Origin: Thermoleophilia bacterium
Lineage (GTDB): Bacteria > Actinomycetota > Thermoleophilia > UBA2241
DNA length: 38,017 bases
Direction of reading: 5' to 3'
Assembly: GCA_016933475.1 (NCBI GenBank)
Contig: JAFGAW010000066.1
Coordinates: forward strand, 1-38,017
Numbering within the stretch: position 1 is the first letter of the stretch; every line of letters starts with the position of its first letter. The notes below the pieces were generated by a model, which ran no database searches, was not told the origin of the DNA, and worked only from the letters and a program-made list of their open reading frames with translations. A program made the translations under genes and the position numbers. Positions 4,710-32,605 of the stretch are shown piece after piece.

Positions 4710-5489
4710 CTAGAGCCCATGGGGCGTCTCGGCCCGTCCCCCGCCCCTCAATCGCACCCACAGCAGGTCGGCGTTGACGAGCAGCACGGCGGCCGAGAGC
4801 AGCGGGAGCGCCGGCACGGCGGTCAACCAGAAGCCGGCCCCGATGCTCAACGCGAACGAGAGCGTCATCGCGACCGCCGTCCACCCGGCGCGCAGACCGA
4901 AGCGCCGTGCCGCGCCGAGGTAGAGGGCGAAGAAGATGAAGTCGGCCACACCCAGCGCGGTGTAGGCCTCGTCCGGCCGGTAGCCTGGCCAGGCGAGCGC
5001 CACGGTGAAGGCGCCGATGACCCGGGGCCCTTGCGCGATCAGCACCTTGGTCGGGCCGAAGTAGACGCTGACCACGTCGGTCACGGTCACCACGGCAGCG
5101 ATCAGGACCACCCAGCTGACGCGCTCGAGCGCCCCGGCGAGCAGGAGACCCGCCGCAGTGGCGAAGAGCACCTTGCCGACGTTGGCTCCGGGGACCCAGC
5201 CGGCGAGGCTGCAGGCGACCGCGGCGGCGAGCCCCGCGGCGAGCAGGACCACCAGCAGGCGGCGGACACCGGGCCGCCGGCGGGCGCCGGGCAGCGCGGC
5301 GAGATCCCACTGCACGAGCGCGGCGAGCGCGGCGGCGAAGCCGGAGGCGAGCACGGCGCCCAGCGTCGTCTCCACCGCGGGCAGGTAGCGACTCAGCCCG
5401 GTGTAGGCCGCGAAGAGTGCCGCCGCGACCGCCGCACGCACGAGTGCGGTGGACGGGTCAGTACGGAGGGATGGCGTCGTACCACTCAC
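4710..5489 (-). CDS. Polytopic membrane protein; candidate presenilin/signal-peptide-peptidase-like (A22) intramembrane aspartyl protease
   Basis: Several hydrophobic segments; VTVTDVVSVYFGPTKVLI (cf. YD motif), ALGVADFIFFALYLGAA (cf. GxGD motif) and AVPALPLLSAAVLL (PAL motif) in the correct order; GTG start overlapping the upstream gene by 32 nt. Confidence 0.6.
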   Translation of the reverse strand: MSGTTPSLRTDPSTALVRAAVAAALFAAYTGLSRYLPAVETTLGAVLASGFAAALAALVQWDLAALPGARRRPGVRRLLVVLLAAGLAAAVACSLAGWVPGANVGKVLFATAAGLLLAGALERVSWVVLIAAVVTVTDVVSVYFGPTKVLIAQGPRVIGAFTVALAWPGYRPDEAYTALGVADFIFFALYLGAARRFGLRAGWTAVAMTLSFALSIGAGFWLTAVPALPLLSAAVLLVNADLLWVRLRGGGRAETPHGL

Positions 5490-6060
5490 CGAGCCGGCGG
5501 AAGGCCCGCCAGAACGCGGCCTTGAGCCGCTGCTCGTCGAGGGACGCGTCGATGTCGGGCGTGACGAGGATCTCGGTGCCCGGGGTGAACTCGACGATCT
5601 CGCCCGGCTCGTAGGCGATCTCGCGGGCCATCGGCACGGCGGCGGCGTTGAGCGCCGCGACCGTCTCCTCGCCCATGGCGACGACGATCTTGGGCTCGAC
5701 CACGGCCAGCTCGCGGCGCAGGTGCTCCAGGCAGCGCCCTTCGGACTGCGCCTCCTGCACGTCGCCGCACTTGATCACGTTGGTGCCGTAGAGCTGCAGC
5801 GGGTCGATCTTGAGGCGCTGGCAGCTCTTCATCAGTGCCGTGCCGCTGCGGCCGAAGAAGGCGACCCCCTCATGGCACTCGCTCGGCCTGGCCTGGTACT
5901 TCAGCATGAAGATGTCGGCCAGCGGGTGGCCGGAGCCGATGACCGGCATGGTGCGCGCGTGACGGCAGCCGCGGCAGCGCAGGATCTCGCCGGTCAGCTC
6001 GTTGATCTCCGAGATGGCCCGGGTCAGGTACTTGTCGTAGATCTCGTTCGGTTGTGCCAC
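5458..6060 (-). CDS. Uracil-DNA glycosylase family 4/5-like Fe-S protein, divergent catalytic motifs
   Basis: CRGC near N-terminus, GVAFFGRSGTALMKS, TNVIKC...GRCLEHLRREL typical of [4Fe-4S] UDGs; canonical GExPG and HPS motifs not recognisable. Confidence 0.7.
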   Translation of the reverse strand: MAQPNEIYDKYLTRAISEINELTGEILRCRGCRHARTMPVIGSGHPLADIFMLKYQARPSECHEGVAFFGRSGTALMKSCQRLKIDPLQLYGTNVIKCGDVQEAQSEGRCLEHLRRELAVVEPKIVVAMGEETVAALNAAAVPMAREIAYEPGEIVEFTPGTEILVTPDIDASLDEQRLKAAFWRAFRRLGEWYDAIPPY

Positions 6061-6243
6061 GGAGTACCTCGGCAGGAAGCGGTCGTCTGCTTGTTCGCCT
6101 CGCCCTGATGAATCCCTCGTAAGGTACCCTCGATCGTCGGCCGATGCGCGACGTTATCGCTTTGAGCAGGGGAATCCCCCTGCCCTGCCAGGCCCGCGCC
6201 GGTCGTGACCGCCGGGCGGCACGGGATTGCTGTTGTCATGGAA

Positions 6244-6279
6244 GCGACCGCGCGCGATCGCCGAGCCGCGCGCGGTCGC
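6244..6279. repeat. 12-bp perfect inverted repeat (gcgaccgcgcgc ... gcgcgcggtcgc)
   Basis: Arms 6244-6255 and 6268-6279, 12-nt spacer. Confidence 0.7.
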
Positions 6280-6350
6280 CGACGCCGTGGGCGGTCGCCG
6301 TCGCCGTGGGGACGGCCGCAGGCCGACGGAGGGGGGCCGGGGCCGGAGAC

Positions 6351-6390
6351 GCCGCCGGGGCGCAGCGCTCTCGCGCTGCGCCCCGGCGGC
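6351..6390. terminator. Perfect 18-bp stem, TCTC tetraloop hairpin, downstream of the inositol-phosphate synthase gene
   Basis: gccgccggggcgcagcgc-tctc-gcgctgcgccccggcggc; 43 nt past the stop codon of the minus-strand gene; no U-tract. Confidence 0.7.
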
Positions 6391-6432
6391 TGCGACCCGG
6401 TGCTCGGCCCTGACGGCCGACGGGCGCGGTGC

Positions 6433-7536
6433 TCAGCCCTGAAGGACGGCGGTCGCCCCGCGGCCCTCGCCGGCGATGAACTCCTCGGTGAGGCGCCGGC
6501 AGAGATCGTCGGGGTGCTGGACCGGCGGCGACTTCATGAAGTAGGAGCTCGGACCCTCGAGCGAGCCCGCGAGGCCGCGGTCGAGGGCGATCTTGGCGCA
6601 GCGCACGGCGTCGATCACGATGCCCGCCGAGTTGGGCGAGTCGACGACCTCGAGCTTGAGCTCGATGTTGAGCGCCGAGTCGCCGAAGCTGCGACCCTCG
6701 AGGCGGATGTAGGCCCACTTGCGGTCCTCGAGCCAGGCGACGTGGTCGCTGGGCCCGATGTGGACGTTGTCGGCGCCCATATCGTAGTCGAGCTGACTGG
6801 TGACGGCGTTGGTCTTGGAGATCTTCTTCGACTCGAGGCGCTCGCGCTCGAGCATGTTGAGGAAGTCGGTGTTGCCGCCGACGTTGAGCTGGCTCGTGCG
6901 CTCAAGGCGGACGCCGCGCTCCCTCATCAACCGGGTGAGCACGCGGTGCACGATGGTGGCCCCGACCTGGCTCTTGATGTCGTCGCCGATGATCGGCACG
7001 CCGGCCTCGGAGAAACGCCGCTGCCAGTAGGGCTCGCGGGCGAGGAACACGGGGATGCAGTTGACCATGGCGCAGCCGGCGGTGAGGATCTGCTCGGCGT
7101 ACCACTTGGTCGCGTCTTCGCTGCCCACGGGCAGGTAGTTGACGACGACGTCGGCCTGCGTCTCCTTGAGGATGCCGACGATGTCGTCGGTCGGGCCCGG
7201 CGCCTTCTCGATGATCTGCGAGAGGTACTTGCCCAGCCCGTCGTGGGTCATGCCGCGCGCGACGGTGACGCCCTTGGCCGGGACGTCACAGAACACCGGC
7301 GTGCAGTTGGGCTTGGTCTTGATCGCCTCGGAGAGGTCTTTGCCGACCTTGTTCTTGTCGATATCGATGGCGGCGACGAACTCGATGTCGCGGATGTGGT
7401 AGCCGCCCACGACCGGGTGCATGAGGCCGGGCACGAAGTCGGACTTCTTGGCGTTCTTGTAGAACTCGACGCCCTGGATGAAGGACGAGGCGCAGTTGCC
7501 CACGCCGATGATCGCGACGCGCACTGGATTGGCCAA
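6433..7536 (-). CDS. ino1: Inositol-3-phosphate synthase
   Basis: [79 protein letters not shown]: classic actinobacterial Ino1. Confidence 0.95.
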
Positions 7537-22602: not shown

Positions 22603-24474
22603 TCACTCCGCGACCGTGATCCGCACCGTCGACCCCCAGGCGGCGAGGGTCTCGGCTTCGGGGTCCTGCGCGATCACGGTGCCGTCCGGCTCAGGACTCG
22701 CCTCCGTGCGGACATCGACGACGAAGCCCATGGACTCGAGCCTCTCAGTCGCCGTGGTCAGGTCCATCCCGTACACGCCGGGCACCTGGACAACGGTGGC
22801 CGTCGGCGTAGGCGTGGGCGTGGGCTCGGGACCGGTGGAGAGCACGATGGCGACCCTGCTCCCACGCTCGACCTTCGTGTCGAACGGCGGGTCCTGGGCC
22901 ATGACGCGCCCGGCCTCGATCTCGGTGCTCGCCTGGGTCGTCACCTCGCCGACCGCGAGACCGGCCTCGGTGAGGGCGGCTATCGCGTCGGCCTGGGTCA
23001 TGCCGACGAGGTCCGGCACGACGGCCTTCGGCTCCCCGGTGCTCACCCAGAACACCACCGTGGAGCCGCGCTCGACCGCCTCCCCGGCAGCCGGGTCCTG
23101 GCGGTACACGCGTCCCTCGGCGACGTCGTCCGAACGCCCGGTCTTGCGGTCGCCCTCGAGCCCGTTCTCGCGCAGCCAGTCGGCGACGTCGCCCTCGTCC
23201 CAGCCGCGGAAGTCGGGGAGCTCCACGGTCTGCGACCCGCCGCTCACCCAGACGTCGACGGTCTCGCCCTCGGCCATCTTCGTGCCCCCGGGCGGGGACT
23301 GGCGCGAGACGAACCCGGCGGCGAACTCCTCGGAGAACTCCTCCTGTACGGCGACCTTGAAGCCGGCGTCCTCGAGCCGGCGGACCGCCGCGTCCTCGGT
23401 CAGACCTACCACGTTGGGCACCTCGACCTTGTCGCCGCTCACGCTCGCCCAGGCGAAGTACCCGACGAGGGCGAGCGCGACGAGCGCGCCGAGGATGAGG
23501 AAGAGCGGCCAGCGGCGGCGCTTCTTCTCCTCCTCCGCCGCCTCCGCGGCCGGTGTCATGACGCGCGTCGCCCCGGCCGCGGTCGCCGCGCCGACGAACT
23601 GCGTGCGCTCTGCTTCGGGGTCGAACCCCGCGGCCGCGACCGGCGCCCCCGCACGCGCCGCCCGCAGGTCGGCGGCGAACTCGGCGGCGCTGGCGTAGCG
23701 GTGATCTGGATCCTTGGCGAGAGCCCTGAGGACGATCTGGTTGAGTGAAGTGGGCATGCCCGGGACAAGGGTCACCGGCTCCTCGGGCAGCTCGTTCACG
23801 TGCTGCATGGCGACGTTGACGGCACTGTCCCCCGAGAACGGCACGCGGCCGGTGAGCATCTCGTAGAGCACGACTCCGACCGAATAGAGGTCGGAGCGCT
23901 CGTCGACCGGCAGTCCGCGCGCCTGCTCGGGAGAGAGGTACTGCGCCGTACCCAGGATCGAGCCCGCCTCGGTCATGCCCGAGTCGCCGGCCCGAGCGAT
24001 GCCGAAGTCGGTGATCTTGGCCGCCCCGTTGCGGTCGATGAGGATGTTCTGCGCCTTGATGTCGCGGTGGATGATCCCGTGGCGGTGGGCGAGCTCGACG
24101 CCGGCGAGCAGGCCGAGGGTCAGGTCGACCGCCTCCGCCCCGCCGAGGCGGCCGCGGCGCCGGATGAGGTCCTTGAGGGTCTCGCCCTCGACGTACTCCA
24201 TGACGATGTAGGGCGTACCGCCGACCTGGCCCCAGTCGTAGATCGCCACGATCCCGGGGTGGTTGAGCCCCGCGGCGGCCTTGGCTTCGCGGCGGAAGCG
24301 CTCGATGAACTGCGCGTCGCCGAGGAAACGCTGCAGCAGCACCTTCAGGGCAACGCGCCGGCCCAGCGTCAGGTCCTCGCCGAGGTAGACGTCGGCCATG
24401 CCGCCGCCGCCCAGCTTGCGCAGGACGCGGTACCGCTCGTTGACGACCTGGCCCTCCTGGAACACGTCGCTCAC
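22603..24474 (-). CDS. pknB: PASTA-domain serine/threonine protein kinase
   Basis: LGGGGMADVYLGEDLTLGRRVALKVL, HRDIKAQNILID, DFGIARA, single TM, then four PASTA-like repeats. Confidence 0.95.
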   Translation of the reverse strand: MSDVFQEGQVVNERYRVLRKLGGGGMADVYLGEDLTLGRRVALKVLLQRFLGDAQFIERFRREAKAAAGLNHPGIVAIYDWGQVGGTPYIVMEYVEGETLKDLIRRRGRLGGAEAVDLTLGLLAGVELAHRHGIIHRDIKAQNILIDRNGAAKITDFGIARAGDSGMTEAGSILGTAQYLSPEQARGLPVDERSDLYSVGVVLYEMLTGRVPFSGDSAVNVAMQHVNELPEEPVTLVPGMPTSLNQIVLRALAKDPDHRYASAAEFAADLRAARAGAPVAAAGFDPEAERTQFVGAATAAGATRVMTPAAEAAEEEKKRRRWPLFLILGALVALALVGYFAWASVSGDKVEVPNVVGLTEDAAVRRLEDAGFKVAVQEEFSEEFAAGFVSRQSPPGGTKMAEGETVDVWVSGGSQTVELPDFRGWDEGDVADWLRENGLEGDRKTGRSDDVAEGRVYRQDPAAGEAVERGSTVVFWVSTGEPKAVVPDLVGMTQADAIAALTEAGLAVGEVTTQASTEIEAGRVMAQDPPFDTKVERGSRVAIVLSTGPEPTPTPTPTATVVQVPGVYGMDLTTATERLESMGFVVDVRTEASPEPDGTVIAQDPEAETLAAWGSTVRITVAE

Positions 24475-24536
24475 TGTCAGCTGCCTCTCATCCGTCGTTC
24501 ATGCTGTACGGCACCCACGCCCGTGTCCCTGCCCGG

Positions 24537-25976
24537 TCAGGGCAGCGACACCTGCTCCAGCGCCGCCCGCAGCACGGCGGCGGCGATCGGAGCGGCCACC
24601 TCGCCGCCCGTCGCGCTGACGCCGTCGATCGCCACCGCGACCGCCACCTGGGGGTCGTCGGCGGGGGCGAAGCCGATGAACCAGGCGACGTTGGTGCCGT
24701 CGCCCTTCTCGCCGGTGCCGGTCTTGCCGGCGACCGGTATACCCTCGAGCGCCGCGCCCGTCCCCGTCCCCGCGGTCACGACCCGCTGCATCATCGTGTT
24801 CAGCGTGGCCGCGGTCTGCGGGGTCATCGCCTCGAGCCACATCTCGGGCTCGGCCGTGCTCACCGTCGTCCCGTCGGCGGCGAGCACCTCGTACACCAGG
24901 TACGGCACCATCACGCGACCGCCGTTGGCGACCGCCCCGGCGACCAGCGCCATCTGCAGCGGCGAGGCGAGCGCGTTCTCCTGGCCGCAGGCGAACCACG
25001 CCGTGCCCAGCGGGTCCATGTCCTCGGTCGGCTCGAGCAGCGCGCCGTCGCGGTAGCGGCCGCTGACGGCGACGGCCTTCTCCGGCAGGGCGAGTGGCGG
25101 CCGCTGCCAGAAGCCGAAGGCCTCGGCGCCGGCCGTCAACTGCTTGCGCCCGACGTCGTTGCCGACCTTACCGAACGTGGTGTTGATGGACAGGGTGAGC
25201 GCCGTCGTGAAGTCGTGCAGGCCGTAGACGGCGCCGCCGTAGTTGGTCACCTTGCCGCCGTAGACGACATAGGTACCTGTGTCGGTGAAGCGCGACTCCG
25301 GGTCGACGGCGCCGGCGTCGAGAGCCGCAGCCGCGGTCACCACCTTGAACGCCGATCCGGGCACGAAGAGGCCCTGCAGGGCGCGGTCGAAGAGCGGCGC
25401 CGACGGGTCGCCCGAGTACCTGTCCCAGCGGCTCTCGAGGCGCTCCAGGTCGAAGCTCGGCGCCGACGCCGCGGCGATCACCGCGCCGGTGCCCGGGTCG
25501 AGGGCGACCACCGCGCCCTGCTGCCCCTTCAGCGCCTGCTGCGCGGCGCGCTGCACGGCCGGCACCAGGGTGAGGCGCACGTCGGCGCCGTCCGGGCGCC
25601 GGCCGAGGATGCGGTCGACCCAGCCCTGCGTGCCGAGCTCGAGGCTCTCGCCGGTGAGAAGCTCGTTGAGCTCCGCCTCGAGCCCGGTGCGCCCGTAGCG
25701 CACGCTGTCGTAGCCCAGCAGGTGCGGGGCGAGCGAGCCCTGCGGGTAGCGGCGCCGGTAGTAGCCGGACCGCCGCACCGAGCCGGCGAGAACGCTGCCG
25801 TCGTAGGCGAGCAGATCGCCGCGGGGGTGCTTCATCTCCTGGGCGATGCGGCGGTGGTTCTCGGGTGCGGTGCGCAGGTCCTCGGCGCGCACGACCATCC
25901 AGTACGTCAGATTGACGATGAGCGCGGCGAAGAGCACGGCGGCGATCACGAAGATCCTGGCGACGGCGCGGTTCAC
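24537..25976 (-). CDS. pbpA: Penicillin-binding protein (PbpA/FtsI-like transpeptidase)
   Basis: N-terminal TM, GLFVPGSAFKVVTAAAAL (SxxK), SINTTFG (SxN), AGKTGTGEKG (KTG). Confidence 0.93.
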   Translation of the reverse strand: MNRAVARIFVIAAVLFAALIVNLTYWMVVRAEDLRTAPENHRRIAQEMKHPRGDLLAYDGSVLAGSVRRSGYYRRRYPQGSLAPHLLGYDSVRYGRTGLEAELNELLTGESLELGTQGWVDRILGRRPDGADVRLTLVPAVQRAAQQALKGQQGAVVALDPGTGAVIAAASAPSFDLERLESRWDRYSGDPSAPLFDRALQGLFVPGSAFKVVTAAAALDAGAVDPESRFTDTGTYVVYGGKVTNYGGAVYGLHDFTTALTLSINTTFGKVGNDVGRKQLTAGAEAFGFWQRPPLALPEKAVAVSGRYRDGALLEPTEDMDPLGTAWFACGQENALASPLQMALVAGAVANGGRVMVPYLVYEVLAADGTTVSTAEPEMWLEAMTPQTAATLNTMMQRVVTAGTGTGAALEGIPVAGKTGTGEKGDGTNVAWFIGFAPADDPQVAVAVAIDGVSATGGEVAAPIAAAVLRAALEQVSLP

Positions 25977-25980
25977 GGCC

Positions 25981-27303
25981 TCACCTCAGCTCCGCCAGGC
26001 GCCGGCGCTGGACCTCGTCCCCAGAGTGCACGACGGCGGTGCGGTGGGAGACCATGAGCAGCAGGGCGACGAGGATGAAGTTGGCGACGATCGAGCTGCC
26101 GCCGTAGCTCATGAAGGGCAGGGTCACGCCGGTCAGCGGGATCAGGCGCGTGACCCCCCCGATGATGATGAACGTCTGCAGCCCGAAGGCGGTGGCCAGG
26201 CCGCCGGCGAGCAGCTTGGAGAAGCCGTCGGGGGCCCAGACCGCGATCCTGAAGCCGCGCCACACGAAGAGCAGATAGCAGAGGATGACGGCGACCGCAC
26301 CGAGCAGCCCCATCTCGTTGGCCAGGGCGGTGAAGATGAAGTCGGTCGCCATGTCGGGGACGACGGGGTCGCCGGCCGCGTAGAGCAGGTAGCCGCGCCC
26401 GAAGCCCGCCCCGACGACGCCGCCGTCGGCCATCGTGAACAGCGACTGCAGGAGCTGGTACCCGGTGGTCTCGGCGTAGCGCCAGGGGTCGATCCAGATG
26501 TCGAAGCGGTCGCGCACGTGCGGGACGACGGAGAGCGCGAAAGCGGCGGCGGCGGCGAAGAGGCCGGCGCCGAGCACGACGTAGACGATGCGCGTCGTCG
26601 CCATGTAGAGGAGGGCGACGAAGACGGCCATGAAGAGCAGCGACATGCCGAAGTCCTTCATGAAGACGAGCATGACCAGCGACAGCACCCACATGATCAG
26701 CAGGGGGCCGAAGTACTTGGTCGCCGGCACCGGCACGCCCAGCAGGCGGCGGGTCGGCACCGAGAGCATGACCTTCTTGTCGTCGAGGTAGCCGGCCAGG
26801 AAGACGACGATGGCGAGCTTCGCGAATTCGGAGGGCTGGATCGACATCCCGAAGAGGCGGATCCAGAGCCGGGCGCCGCGCACCTCGGTGCCGGCGACGA
26901 TGGTCAGGACGAGCAGGCCGAGGCCGACGGCGCCGATCACGTAACGGTAGCGATCGAGGCGCAGCGGGTCGCGCACGACGACCACGGTGAGGATGAAGAG
27001 CGCGGCGCCCACGAGCAGCCAGCGGCCCTGCAACTGGGCGAGCCGCGGCTCGAGCCGGTAGATCGCCGTGAGGCCGAGCGCGCAGAGCAGGGCCGTGACC
27101 GGCAGCAGGTAGGGGTCGGCCAGCGGGAGCAGCCAGCGGACGACGAAGTGCAGGACGACGAAGACGCCGACGAAGAACAGCGCATAGACGATCGAGGCCC
27201 GGCTGACCTCGCCGTAGCGCCCGGCGTAGACCGAGACGTAGGCCATCGTCGCCGCTGCGCCGGCGAGGACGAGGAAGAGGAGCTCGACGGTGCGCGGCTT
27301 CAC
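25981..27303 (-). CDS. FtsW/RodA/SpoVE-family peptidoglycan glycosyltransferase
   Basis: GMSIQPSEFAKLAIVVFLAGYL, MKDFGMSLLFM, ATDFIFTALANEMGLLGA, LPFMSYGGSSIVANFI; GTGA overlap with the phosphatase gene. Confidence 0.95.
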   Translation of the reverse strand: MKPRTVELLFLVLAGAAATMAYVSVYAGRYGEVSRASIVYALFFVGVFVVLHFVVRWLLPLADPYLLPVTALLCALGLTAIYRLEPRLAQLQGRWLLVGAALFILTVVVVRDPLRLDRYRYVIGAVGLGLLVLTIVAGTEVRGARLWIRLFGMSIQPSEFAKLAIVVFLAGYLDDKKVMLSVPTRRLLGVPVPATKYFGPLLIMWVLSLVMLVFMKDFGMSLLFMAVFVALLYMATTRIVYVVLGAGLFAAAAAFALSVVPHVRDRFDIWIDPWRYAETTGYQLLQSLFTMADGGVVGAGFGRGYLLYAAGDPVVPDMATDFIFTALANEMGLLGAVAVILCYLLFVWRGFRIAVWAPDGFSKLLAGGLATAFGLQTFIIIGGVTRLIPLTGVTLPFMSYGGSSIVANFILVALLLMVSHRTAVVHSGDEVQRRRLAELR

Positions 27304-28556
27304 GGCAGCGTCTCCAGGCTCTCGAGCAGGCCCAGCGCGCCGTCGCGGCTCTGGAGACGCGCCTCGTCCACGAGCTGCTGCTGCATGGGGGTCAGCGAGT
27401 CGTAGGCCCGCGTGCCGCGCACGTACACGTCTTGGATCTTCAGCGGCCCGAGCGCCCAGGGCAGGCCGCTGAAGACGACGACGTCGCCGTCGTCGACGCC
27501 GACGAAGTAGACGGCCTGCAGGGAGACGGCGGCGCCCACGGCGAGGACGAGCAGGACGAGCAGGACGGCGAGGACGATCTTGAGCCGCCGCATCGTGCGC
27601 GCCTCGCGCTCGGCCGCCGGCGGGGCGGACGCCGCACGCGGCGCCGCCTCCAGGGGAGAAGCAGCCGCGGCGTCGGCAGGGGCGGCCGGGCCACCGGCTC
27701 CGACCGGCTCGGCGACCGGGCCGTCGTCGGCGGCGGTCGCGGGCGCGTCGCCCGGAGTGAGGTCGCCGGTCGCGGCCGTGTCGGCGAGCGCAGCGCCGGC
27801 GGCCGCAGCCGCACCGCTCGAGGCGCCGGCGGCCGCGAGCCCGGCCGCGTCGTCGTCGGCCTCGGCGAAGCACACGACGACGACGGTGATGTTGTCGAGG
27901 CCGCCCCCGCGGCGCGCCTGCTTGACGAGCTCGGCCGCGCTCTCCCCGGGGTCGTCGTGCCGCAGCGCGCGCCGGATGCGCTCGTCCGGCACCATACCGG
28001 TCAGGCCGTCGCTGCACAGCAGGACGACGTCGTCGGCGCGCAGGGCGAGCTCGTAGGCGTCGACCTCGACCGAAGGCTCGGTGCCGAGAGCGCGCGTGAG
28101 GATCGAGCGCATCGGGTGCACCGCGGCCTGCTCGAGGGTCAGCTCGCCGTCGCGGATCATCTGGCCGACCACCGAGTGGTCGACGCTGACCTGGCGCAGC
28201 TCGCCGCCGCGCAGCAGGTAGGCGCGGCTGTCGCCGACGTGGGCGAAGCGCGCCACGTCGCCGTCGAGCACCATGGCCGTCAGCGTAGTGCCCATGCCGG
28301 CCAGGCTCTCGTCGTCGACGGCCGCATCGTAGACCGCAGAGTTCGCGGCGCGGGCCGCGTCGACGACGTCGTCGCCGGCGGCGACCCGTGCGCCCAGCGT
28401 GGAACAGGCGAGATCGGAGGCCACCTCGCCGGCCCGCGCCCCGCCCATGCCGTCGCAGACCGCGTAGAGCGGCGGCCGGGCGACGGCGGCGTCCTCGTTG
28501 GCCTCCCGGTGCAGGCCGATGTCGGTACGCACCGCGTGGCGGGCGACCAGGGTCAC
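27300..28556 (-). CDS. pstP: PP2C-family serine/threonine phosphatase (PstP-like)
   Basis: GLHREANEDAAVARPPLYAVCDGMGGARAGEVAS, FAHVGDSRAYLLRGGELRQVSVDHSVV, LLCSDGLTGMVPDE, DNITVVVV; C-terminal TM segment. Confidence 0.95.
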   Translation of the reverse strand: MTLVARHAVRTDIGLHREANEDAAVARPPLYAVCDGMGGARAGEVASDLACSTLGARVAAGDDVVDAARAANSAVYDAAVDDESLAGMGTTLTAMVLDGDVARFAHVGDSRAYLLRGGELRQVSVDHSVVGQMIRDGELTLEQAAVHPMRSILTRALGTEPSVEVDAYELALRADDVVLLCSDGLTGMVPDERIRRALRHDDPGESAAELVKQARRGGGLDNITVVVVCFAEADDDAAGLAAAGASSGAAAAAGAALADTAATGDLTPGDAPATAADDGPVAEPVGAGGPAAPADAAAASPLEAAPRAASAPPAAEREARTMRRLKIVLAVLLVLLVLAVGAAVSLQAVYFVGVDDGDVVVFSGLPWALGPLKIQDVYVRGTRAYDSLTPMQQQLVDEARLQSRDGALGLLESLETLP

Positions 28557-28563
28557 CGCGGGA

Positions 28564-29106
28564 TCACTCCTCGTAGCGGAACACCGTCTCGCCGATGCGC
28601 AGACGGCTGTCGAGCTTCAGCTGCGCCTCGGTGACGGCGCGCTCGTTCACGTACGTCCCGTTGGTGCTGCCGAGGTCCTCGACGACGTAGATTTGACCGC
28701 GCGTGACGAGCCGCGCGTGGGTGCTCGACACCGTCGGCTCGTCGAGCACGATGCTGCTCGAGGGTGCGCGGCCGATCGTCACCCAGCCCTCGAGCGGGAA
28801 GATGACGCCCGGCGGCACGATGGGGCTCTTCTCGACCACGAGCCGCGGGTCGATGTGCGGGGTGAAGTCGAGCAACTGGCCGTCCATCGTGCGCTCGACG
28901 TCGCGCTGCTCGCGTCGGGCGTCGCGCTCCTCCGGGGACACCGGCGGCGGAGGCACGTCGGCGGTCGGCAGGGCGACGTCGGGCGGCGACGTCGCCGCCT
29001 GCCCGGTCACGGTGTCGCGCACGGTGCGGCGCACCACCCACCAGACGAAGAGGTAGAGCAGCACGAGGATGCCGACCTTCAGGGCCAGCAGCACGGTGTC
29101 GATCAT
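28564..29106 (-). CDS. fhaB: FHA-domain membrane protein (FhaB-like)
   Basis: N-terminal TM; VTIGRAPSSSIVLDEPTVSSTHARLV...VEDLGSTNGTYVNERAV; gggaggtg RBS. Confidence 0.92.
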   Translation of the reverse strand: MIDTVLLALKVGILVLLYLFVWWVVRRTVRDTVTGQAATSPPDVALPTADVPPPPVSPEERDARREQRDVERTMDGQLLDFTPHIDPRLVVEKSPIVPPGVIFPLEGWVTIGRAPSSSIVLDEPTVSSTHARLVTRGQIYVVEDLGSTNGTYVNERAVTEAQLKLDSRLRIGETVFRYEE

Positions 29107-29149
29107 CGGCACCTCCCGGGGCGGACGAAGCCGATCGTGCCCGTCGCCG

Positions 29150-30085
29150 TCACGCCCCTCGCCTCGCGCGGAGCAGGGCGGCCAGGGCGGCGTCGCGGGC
29201 GGCAGAGAGCCGCTCGACGCCGACGTCGCCGACCTCCTCCTCGACGCCTTCGGCGAGGAGGTCGGCGACGTCGGCGGGGAACTCGGTCCAGGTGGCCAGG
29301 TCGTTGAGGACGTCTTCCTTGACGCCGCCGAGACGGCGCAGGTGCCCGCGCACGCCGTCCTCGCCGCCGCCGAGGTAGTAGAGCAGGTGCGGCCCCATGA
29401 CCGCCCAGCGCAGGCCGGGACCGTCGGTGACGGCACGGTCGACGTCGGCGACACTGGCGACGCCGCTGCGCACGAGCTCGATGGCCTCGCGCCACAGCGC
29501 CGCCGAGAGGCGGTTGGCGACGTAGCCGGGCACGTCGCGACGCACGACGACGGGCCGCTTGCCGAGGCTCTCGTAGAAGCCCGCGGCCCGCTCGAGGGTC
29601 TCGGGCGCGGTCTGTGGCCCCCCGGCGAGCTCGACCAGCGGCACGAGGTAGGGCGGGTTGTACGGGTGCGCGGCGAGCGTGCGCTCAGGGTGCGCGGTAG
29701 CCTCCTGGATGGCGCCGATCGAGAGCCCGGATGAGCTCGTCGCGATGAGCGCGGCGGCCGGCGCCAGCCGGTCGGCGAGGGCGAAGACCTCGCGCTTCGC
29801 GGCGAGGTCCTCGGGGGCGCACTCCTGCACCAGCGCCACCCCGGCGAAGGCCGGCGCGGGGTCGGTATGGGTGGTGAGGGCGGCCACCCCGGCCTCGCAG
29901 GCGGCCGAGTCGGCGAGCCCCTGCCCGGCGAGGAAGCGCGCCGCCAGCGGGGCGCGCAGCGCGGCCCGCGCCAGCGCCTCGGGGTCGGGGTCGTAGAGGC
30001 GCGTCTCGAGGCCGTGCGCGGCGAACAGTGCCGCCCAGCCGGCGCCGGTGAGCCCGGCGCCCGCGACCGCCACCGCCTGGGTCAC
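29150..30085 (-). CDS. 3-hydroxyacyl-CoA dehydrogenase family (L-gulonate/carnitine dehydrogenase, lambda-crystallin-like)
   Basis: VAVAGAGLTGAGWAALFAAHG, IATSSSGLSIGAIQ, LAAHPYNPPYLVPLVELAGG, GYVANRLSAALWREAIELV; GTGA overlap with fhaA. Confidence 0.9.
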   Translation of the reverse strand: MTQAVAVAGAGLTGAGWAALFAAHGLETRLYDPDPEALARAALRAPLAARFLAGQGLADSAACEAGVAALTTHTDPAPAFAGVALVQECAPEDLAAKREVFALADRLAPAAALIATSSSGLSIGAIQEATAHPERTLAAHPYNPPYLVPLVELAGGPQTAPETLERAAGFYESLGKRPVVVRRDVPGYVANRLSAALWREAIELVRSGVASVADVDRAVTDGPGLRWAVMGPHLLYYLGGGEDGVRGHLRRLGGVKEDVLNDLATWTEFPADVADLLAEGVEEEVGDVGVERLSAARDAALAALLRARRGA

Positions 30086-30924
30086 GACCGCCTCTCGAAG
30101 CGCAGCTCGGTCGTGCCAAGCTCGACACGGTCGCCGGCACGCAGGGTCGCCTGCTTGACGACCCGCCCGTTGACCCTGAGGCCGTTGGTCGAGTCGAGGT
30201 CGCGAACCACGAACTCGCCGCCCGCACGTCGGACCTCGGCGTGCTGACGCGAGACGTTGGGGTCGGTGAGGACGATGTCGCAGCGGCGGCTGCGGCCCAG
30301 CACGGTGACGTCCTGCGCCAGCTCGAAGACGCCGGCCTCGCCACGCAGCACGCCGCCGGACGCGGCCACAGGCGGGCGCTCGTAGAGCACGGTGTGCCCC
30401 GGACCGAGCGCGGCCCCGGCCGCCATGCCCGCACCGGCCGCCGCGGCGCCCGGCATCGCGGCCCCGGCGGGCACCACCGGTGTGATCGGCGGCGTCGGCA
30501 CCACCGGCGCCGGCCCGCCCGCCGCAGCCGAGGCCGCGTACTCCTCGGCACGCTGCGGGTCGACGGTGCGCGTCGCGATGCCGAACTCACCGACGCGCAG
30601 GTCGTCGTCCTGGCGCAGATCGATGCGCGGCGGCGCCACCATCGTCCAGCCCTCGCGGCGGGCGAAGGCCGAGACGTAGCTCGAGAGCTCGGCCTTGAGC
30701 GAGTCGGCGAACGAGGTCAGGTGCTCGTAGTCGTCGTGCCCGAGGTAGATCTCGAACTCGTTGGGGACGTAGACGTGCGACGGCCCGACGATCTTGTGGT
30801 CGCCGAGCTCCTTGGCCAGCTTGTGGGCGAGCTCGACGGGCTGGACGCTCGCCTTGAAGGCCCGACCGAAGACGCCTTCGACCAGACCCTCGAGCTTCTG
30901 CTCAACCGATTTCAGGATGTTCAT
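30082..30924 (-). CDS. fhaA: FhaA-like protein (DUF3662 + FHA domain)
   Basis: MNILKSVEQKLEGLVEGVFGRAFKASVQPVELAHKLAKELGDHKIVG...YVPNEFEIYLG and C-terminal FHA (VLGRSRRCDIVLTDPNVSRQHAEV...LDSTNGLRVNG). Confidence 0.94.
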   Translation of the reverse strand: MNILKSVEQKLEGLVEGVFGRAFKASVQPVELAHKLAKELGDHKIVGPSHVYVPNEFEIYLGHDDYEHLTSFADSLKAELSSYVSAFARREGWTMVAPPRIDLRQDDDLRVGEFGIATRTVDPQRAEEYAASAAAGGPAPVVPTPPITPVVPAGAAMPGAAAAGAGMAAGAALGPGHTVLYERPPVAASGGVLRGEAGVFELAQDVTVLGRSRRCDIVLTDPNVSRQHAEVRRAGGEFVVRDLDSTNGLRVNGRVVKQATLRAGDRVELGTTELRFERRS

Positions 30925-32605
30925 CAGAGATGTCCTCCGGGTGGGGACCGGGCCACAGGACCAGCGGCAAGAGTACCACGAGGGCGGTGACCGAGACACT
31001 CAGCAGCAGGGCGCCCGGCGTCGCTCGCGTCTCCCAGACGAACAGCGGCAACAGACGGTAGAGGATGAACAGGGTGGCGAAGCTCGCCGCCCAGACCCAG
31101 AGGCGGAGCTCGAGCCGGTCGAGGGCGAGGGCCGTCGCCAGGGCGCCGGCAAGACCGGCGAAGACGCCCATCTGCACGAGGCTCTGCGGGGTCGCGAGGA
31201 CGGCGGCGACGTCGAGCGCCACGTCGAGCGGATCCTCCGCGGCGGCGAGCTCCGCAGCGAGCCGCCCTCGCGGCTGATAAAGCGTGAACGGCCCGCGCGG
31301 CACGCGCTCGAGCAGCAGGACGACGATGAGGACGGCGCCGGTCCAGGCGGCCGTCAGGGCGCCCTTCAGGCGCCCGAACACGGCCGCCAGCGCCGGCGCG
31401 ACCAGCGCGAGACCGAACGGTGCCAGCAGCACCGCGAGCGCCGGCCAGATCGCCAGCACCGGCCGGCGGCCGGCGACGAGGACCACGGCGACGGCGAGCA
31501 CCAGGTAGGCGACGCCGACGCTGAACGAGACGTCGAAGAGCGGGAAGGCGAGCACGCCGAGCAGCCAGGCGAGGCCGGCGCGCGGCAGCACCGCCCAGAC
31601 GGCCACGGTCAGTGCGGCCAGCGGCAAGGTCCAGGCCTCCGGGTACGAAGACAGCTCGCGCACCACGGCGAGACAGACGGCGGCCGCCAGTGCGGCGCCG
31701 CCGCCACGCTCGAGGGCTGCGGCGGCGCGGCCCAGCGGGCGCACTGCGGCACGCGCCCGGTGCAGGGTGCGGCGGCCGAGCTCGCCGCTCTCGAGGAGAT
31801 CCTCGAGCGCGACGGCGACGTCGACCGCCGCCGGGCGGTCGCCGGGCCGCACGGCGCAGGCCGCGTCGACCAGGTCGATGAGCGTCGCCGGAAGGTCCGG
31901 CCGCCACTCGCCGAGCGACGGCAGGCGGCCGGCGGCCACATTGGACAGCGTCTCGGCCGGGGTCTCGCCGCGCACCGGGTTCTCGCCGGCGAGCAGCTCG
32001 AAGAGCACGAGGCCGGCCGAGTAGACGTCGCTCGGCGGCCCGACCCGGCGGCCGGCCGCCTGCTCGGGCGACATGTAGGCGATGGTGCCGATGAGGTCCC
32101 CCTCGCTGGTCAGCGTGTCGGCGTCGAGCAGGCGGGCGATGCCGAAGTCCATGATCTTGACGTGCCCGTGGGCGTCGAGCATGACGTTCTGGGGCTTCAC
32201 GTCGCGGTGGATCACGCCTTGGCTGTGGGCGAAGCCGAGCCCGTCGAAGAGCTCGGCGGCGACCGCCACCGCGTCGGCGTCGCCGAGCTCGCCCTGCAAC
32301 TGGTCGAGGGCCTCGCCCTCGACCAGCTCCCAGACGAGGCACACACGGCGGCCGTCGGTGACGGTGTCGCGGAGGGCGACGATCGCAGGGTGGTCGAGAG
32401 TGCTCGCGGCCTCGATCTCGCGCGCCGCCCGGGCCGGCATCGTGGTGCCCTCACGCAGCACCTTCAGGGCGACGCGTTCCCCCGTCTCGCGGTCGCGCGC
32501 CTCGAAGACGTCGGCAAAACCGCCGCTCCCGAGCCGGCGCAGCACTTCGTACCGCTCGGCCGGCGGGGATGGAGGAAGGCTCGGGTTCTGAAGGGCGACG
32601 GGCAT
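30902..32605 (-). CDS. Serine/threonine protein kinase with polytopic membrane C-terminal domain
   Basis: LGSGGFADVFEARDRETGERVALKVL, HRDVKPQNVMLD, DFGIARLL, GTIAYMSPEQA; followed by about 300 aa with multiple hydrophobic helices. Overlaps fhaA by 23 nt. Confidence 0.92.
   Translation of the reverse strand: MPVALQNPSLPPSPPAERYEVLRRLGSGGFADVFEARDRETGERVALKVLREGTTMPARAAREIEAASTLDHPAIVALRDTVTDGRRVCLVWELVEGEALDQLQGELGDADAVAVAAELFDGLGFAHSQGVIHRDVKPQNVMLDAHGHVKIMDFGIARLLDADTLTSEGDLIGTIAYMSPEQAAGRRVGPPSDVYSAGLVLFELLAGENPVRGETPAETLSNVAAGRLPSLGEWRPDLPATLIDLVDAACAVRPGDRPAAVDVAVALEDLLESGELGRRTLHRARAAVRPLGRAAAALERGGGAALAAAVCLAVVRELSSYPEAWTLPLAALTVAVWAVLPRAGLAWLLGVLAFPLFDVSFSVGVAYLVLAVAVVLVAGRRPVLAIWPALAVLLAPFGLALVAPALAAVFGRLKGALTAAWTGAVLIVVLLLERVPRGPFTLYQPRGRLAAELAAAEDPLDVALDVAAVLATPQSLVQMGVFAGLAGALATALALDRLELRLWVWAASFATLFILYRLLPLFVWETRATPGALLLSVSVTALVVLLPLVLWPGPHPEDISDEHPEIG

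Follow-up and report, generated by a model that had tools for sequence, protein, structure and literature searches.

To our knowledge, enzymes of the presenilin type have until now been described from eukaryotes and archaea. Presenilin forms the catalytic component of gamma-secretase, the protease linked to Alzheimer's disease. Homologues have been reported from Asgard and other archaea (PMC7997004, PMC2947513). In presenilin-1 (PS1), helix TM6a (residues 268-277) and the strands beta1 (288-290) and beta2 (377-381, four residues ahead of Asp385) bind substrate (PMC10290658), and the SPP/SPPL proteases are described as having an orientation opposite to that of presenilin (PMC7366577). As for a bacterial presenilin-class enzyme, no paper was found in the open-access literature (subscription journals were not covered).

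The window analysed here, a stretch of 38,017 nucleotides, carries a candidate for such an enzyme (Table 1). We read this gene as a bacterial member of the presenilin/SPP superfamily of intramembrane aspartyl proteases (GxGD, MEROPS A22-like), with a probability of roughly 0.85, proteolysis itself being inferred. The computation gives presenilin homology, an invariant diaspartyl pair, a PAL motif and eight predicted membrane helices.

Table 1. Coordinates of the presenilin-like gene, its motifs and predicted strands, and the upstream gene.
Feature	Position	Strand	Evidence
Presenilin-like polytopic protein P0001	4710..5489	(-)	259 aa as annotated; homologues and presenilin-only profile matches
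Asp138 codon, first catalytic Asp (TD), equivalent of PS1 Asp257	5076..5078	(-)	69/69; aligned to PS1/PS2 'YDLVAV..GPLRMLVE'
G145-P146-T147 after Asp138 (PS1 KGPLRMLVE)	5049..5057	(-)	G 68/69, P 65/69, T 63/69
Predicted strand beta1, catalytic loop, residues 162-166	4992..5006	(-)	AlphaFold models
Predicted strand beta2, residues 176-180, directly before second Asp (cf. PS1 R377-L381)	4950..4964	(-)	AlphaFold models
G180-V-A-D183, GxGD-equivalent; Asp183 equivalent of PS1 Asp385	4941..4952	(-)	G180, D183 69/69
P226-A-L-P229, PAL motif, start of last helix	4803..4814	(-)	P226 69/69; A/L/P 68/69 each
Divergent family-4-like uracil-DNA glycosylase (UDG), upstream, overlaps annotated start	5458..6060	(-)	PF03167 E=7e-10

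The reading frame, its sequence and the codons of Asp138, Asp183 (4941-4943) and Pro226 (4812-4814) all match the initial annotation. Homologues are found in the same frame at 18-57% identity across the order, the class and Myxococcota, and between close pairs of family genes most changes fall at the third codon position; for these two reasons we take the frame as coding. High-GC DNA has long open reading frames on both strands, and the real gene might have been the antisense frame at 4719-5525 (+), with the presenilin-like one spurious. The same two observations already refute this, and we regard it as practically excluded. The annotated GTG start at 5489 sits within the 3' end of the UDG gene (stop at 5458-5460). 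Translation may start instead at a GTG at 5439-5441 (residue 17), just ahead of the first helix, which would give 243 aa.

Searched against the PDB as a single sequence, the protein had only one match with E<10, the presenilin-1 CTF (E=0.24), in an alignment covering the second Asp and the PAL motif. A Pfam scan of the single sequence gave only DUF2834 below threshold, and an NCBIfam scan gave no match. DUF2834 (E=0.0083, under the cut-off, in 1 of 32 members) was discarded as chance. With profiles of 14, 32 and 66 sequences, the presenilin E-value in the PDB search went from 0.0012 to 2.3e-7 and then to 9e-12. This last value is for presenilin-2; presenilin-1 follows at 2.8e-9, and presenilins are the only significant matches of the 66-sequence profile among 177,635 PDB sequences. 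Below them, SPPL2A is at 0.035 and the best unrelated entry at 0.17, and the PSH entries of the PDB were not matched by this profile. The alignment to presenilin takes in the first-Asp region and then the region from GxGD to PAL, in order, with both the 32- and the 66-sequence profile; with the former, the HMM alignment starts at presenilin TM2. Profile-profile comparison (hhalign) with PS1/PS2 gave P=4.9e-8. Furthermore, a profile of Myxococcota members only matched PS2 at 2.4e-7, PS1 at 6e-7 and SPPL2A at 7e-4. Made from disjoint sequences, it is, at the sequence level, an independent replicate of the presenilin match.

The resemblance had been judged hard to explain by chance, and the fall in E-value from single sequence to 66-sequence profile, together with the invariance of D138, D183, G180 and P226, bears this out. 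An unrelated polytopic membrane protein that mimics the presenilin motifs, by chance or convergence, would agree with the insignificant single-sequence match and with the modest TM-scores given below. It would not account for significant matches limited to presenilins, for the agreement of the disjoint Myxococcota profile and of two fold libraries, or for invariant residues that are exactly the catalytic ones. We hold this explanation, already disfavoured, to be very improbable, and homology to presenilin to be almost certain. Profile search, hhalign and fold search all point to the presenilin/SPP/PSH group and nowhere else; the profile searches do give matches to the A22 family, and there is no confident match to another fold.

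In terms of curated models, none of 199 class genomes has a protein above the PF01080 (Presenilin) cut-off, the best reaching 21.3 bits vs 34.3, and individual members reach this model only below the cut-off (best hmmscan E=0.0028). PF04258 (SPP) matches weakly (0.079), PF06550 (archaeal SPP/PSH) has no match in 21 genomes, and no family member reaches a curated NCBIfam cut-off. The suggestion of an under-annotated bacterial branch is borne out by the PF01080 result and by the lack of a fitting NCBIfam model. In public domain databases, archaeal A22 models may already cover some sequences from bacteria.

Considering the 69-sequence alignment of the family, D138, S141, G180, D183 and P226 are invariant, and A227, L228, P229, G145 and F186 are kept in 68 sequences. 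The survey of both aspartates across orthologues thus leaves no exception. The Asp-to-PAL spacing is 43-48 residues in the family, vs 48 in PS1. The residue before Asp138 is V, A, I, S, L or T and in none of the 69 sequences Tyr; the Thr that was noticed in place of the Tyr of YD is confirmed, and Tyr is replaced in every member. As for the residue before Asp183, the 56 Actinomycetota members have S (32), P (13), A (6) or T (5) and never G, whereas 11 of the 13 Myxococcota members have the G of canonical GxGD. Because of this distribution we take the replacement as a trait of the actinobacterial lineage. The change likened to PS1 G384A is therefore real, but it is not peculiar to this gene. 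One member from Myxococcota, whose branch is very long (L095:1462-2244), has PVLP for PALP and GVTD for GxGD, with both aspartates kept.

The loss of this Gly in all actinobacterial members, with Pro in its place in 13, and the missing Tyr of YD count against an active protease, and Ala at the same Gly position (G219A) slows the archaeal enzyme MCMJR1 (PMC2947513). The protein could then have a presenilin fold with very little or no proteolytic activity left, acting as a channel, a scaffold or a chaperone-like membrane protein; presenilin-like proteins are cited with dual protease and channel roles (PMC7997004). A pseudoenzyme would, however, be expected to lose some of its aspartates, and here both of them, with S141, G180 and P226, are kept in all sequences across two phyla, and Myxococcota members keep GxGD. 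A protein without proteolysis is in our view unlikely. That the family is an active protease we infer, in the absence of an assay, to be quite likely.

Two AlphaFold models (pLDDT 89.0 and 92.7, pTM 0.88 and 0.90) have eight long helices, one N-terminal helix fewer than the nine of presenilin. The fifth helix contains D138, and helices 6 and 8 begin with D183 and PALP, respectively, so the two conserved aspartates are in adjacent helices. The initial annotation had YD, GxGD and PAL on consecutive transmembrane segments; their order is that of presenilin TM6/TM7/(TM8)/TM9, but they are not strictly consecutive, as helix 7 intervenes before PALP. The catalytic loop is modelled with two short helices and two strands, and the predicted beta2 ends three residues before Asp183. 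The counterparts in PS1 are TM6a, beta1 and beta2.

In Foldseek searches of the PDB, the first 13 matches of one model and the first 15 of the other (pLDDT 92.7) are presenilin/PSH chains. Presenilin chains come at the top with probability 1.00, and PSH (4hyg/4y6k) has 0.93-0.98. Against the viral library, the first and sole credible match is an SPP. TM-scores to presenilin/PSH are only 0.34-0.48 and the global rmsd is near 19 A over all columns, and because of this the superposition on presenilin is only partial. Judging from the models, the absent first helix and a flexible arrangement may explain the low TM-scores. Of the two lines of evidence, sequence is the stronger and fold the weaker.

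Lys and Arg are rich at the N-terminus, in loops 2-3 and 6-7 and at the C-terminus (means 1.7-3.5), and poor in loops 1-2, 3-4 and 7-8 (means 0.25-0.7). Counted over loops defined on the model, and omitting the long loop and the C-terminus, the pattern is positive-inside in 67 of 69 sequences, and in 66 with these two included. This distribution predicts cytoplasmic termini at both ends and an extracytoplasmic catalytic loop. Three class members (L059:4731-5774, L062:1435-2502 and L076:1435-2502) have an FN3-like insert of about 100 residues in this loop, for which the best PDB match is a Centyrin (E=0.23). FN3 is a domain type usually found outside the cell, and the insert fits an outside location of the loop. 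Intramembrane proteases do not usually carry a domain of this kind between the two Asp helices.

The profile scores presenilin far above SPPL2A, and this could suggest a presenilin-like orientation, with a cytoplasmic catalytic loop, cutting of type I (N-out) helices and release of cytoplasmic fragments for signalling. The charge distribution, contrary in 67 sequences, and the FN3-like inserts both speak against it, and we find it improbable. An SPP-like orientation with an extracytoplasmic catalytic loop is, on charges and models, the probable one.

Of the 15 genomes of the order, 14 carry the gene, each as a single copy, and in one genome it is split across two contig ends. It was also found in about half (18 of 37) of the other sampled genomes of the class (Thermoleophilia, Actinomycetota), and f19, another actinomycetotal family, has it as well. 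In f31 and f52, also actinomycetotal families, there were two marginal partial matches that are probably chance. Named records with homologues are MAGs of Thermoleophilia or other Actinomycetota and one Myxococcales MAG, and because of the latter Myxococcota were searched. There, 13 of 242 genomes (about 5%) have the gene; a wider profile finds it in 18 of 196 genomes of the same Myxococcota class, one of them marginal. A single-sequence search of genome contigs gave no match, whereas a profile search of contigs did find relatives. A plasmid search with a Myxococcota member as query gave none.

In the tree, sequences cluster by taxonomic family, and Myxococcota split off (support 85), as does f19 (100). 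The outgroup consists of PS1/PS2 fragments only, with no archaeal PSH included, and this is not a rooted tree of the superfamily. Since clades follow taxonomy and genomes have a single copy, we consider the gene to be old, vertically inherited and maintained.

In class loci, the presenilin-like gene follows the UDG gene (here NCBIfam Arch_udg 52.5 bits vs a cut-off of 250) and is convergent with RlmD. The UDG linkage is near-universal in the class. It is absent in f19 and Myxococcota; for this reason it was rejected as a functional clue, and probably reflects operon history only. A glycosyltransferase-PHP metallohydrolase fusion gene is found directly upstream of UDG in most class relatives. 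It is missing here (6061-6432), between UDG and inositol-3-phosphate synthase (6433-7536, -). Further along the window, 22603-32605 (-) has genes for two Ser/Thr kinases, one of which bears four PASTA repeats, for a PBP transpeptidase and for an FtsW/RodA protein, which together are an ordinary actinobacterial cell-division cluster.

In terms of other proteases, Peptidase_S49 (SppA) gave no match in any of the 15 genomes of the order, and none either across most of the class. All 19 class genomes that have no presenilin-like gene lack it too, and it is present in 2 carriers, so replacement of SppA was rejected and no compensation can be claimed. The protein is not the sole intramembrane protease, since S2P proteases are found in 19 of 20 carriers.

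Activity, orientation and substrates are inferred only. In the proposed mechanism, Asp138 and Asp183 would face each other (their distance being inferred) and activate a water that cuts peptide bonds of a substrate helix within the membrane. As happens in gamma-secretase, the substrate would unwind and be held by the PAL loop together with the sheet of two strands that precedes Asp183. With cytoplasmic N- and C-termini and the catalytic loop outside, the enzyme should accept N-in helices (signal peptides left behind, type II anchors and membrane remnants), in which it would resemble SPP and differ from presenilin. Given such substrates, the most likely role would be membrane clean-up or fragment release, as a single-copy housekeeping enzyme without gamma-secretase partner subunits. 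The clean-up role remains a tentative inference, rated somewhat below even, with no substrate identified.

That bacteria own a vertically inherited and active presenilin-class family, with presenilin sequence, SPP orientation, eight helices and no need of the second Gly, is for us an even bet. If true, the presenilin/SPP split or their common ancestor would be in bacteria too, and the family would offer a minimal single-subunit model of gamma-secretase. By profile it is nearer to presenilin than to archaeal PSH, with PAL and with natural substitutions at the G384 position. A small, partner-free model of this kind could inform on the residues needed for catalysis, on orientation vs substrate choice and on the age of the superfamily.

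Among the known systems, type IV prepilin peptidases/FlaK (A24) are likewise diaspartyl GxGD enzymes of bacteria and archaea. Theirs is a catalytic Asp outside the membrane and no PAL motif, and Pfam A24 had no match in any family member searched. With archaeal PSH/MCMJR1 (PF06550), the family shares a prokaryotic host, a short loop and the fold match, and differs in having no sequence-profile match (PSH in the PDB; PF06550 in relatives). PALP is present in nearly all bacterial members, whereas no PAL motif is obvious in MCMJR1 (PMC2947513). With SPP/SPPL (PF04258, A22B), it shares PAL, the GxGD of Myxococcota members and the predicted orientation, with weak matches only (SPPL2A with the Myxococcota profile, and PF04258). 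SPP/SPPL are more distant in sequence than presenilin, and unlike them the family has fewer helices and lacks an extra N-terminal domain.

Lastly, presenilin (PSEN1/PSEN2, PF01080, MEROPS A22A) is the closest match in sequence and comes top in fold. Shared with it are D..V..GP-[LT]-[RK] after the first Asp, LGxxDfiF at the second, PALP and the predicted beta1/beta2. The family differs in its Asp-Asp spacing, mostly 41-50 residues vs 128 in PS1, in TD/VD/AD for YD, in the GxSD/PD/AD/TD of Actinomycetota, in the predicted inverse orientation, in showing no partner subunits and in scoring under the Pfam cut-off. Because YD and, in Actinomycetota, the second Gly fail, and because the helices are eight and not nine, we consider the family a new variant branch and not presenilin proper.
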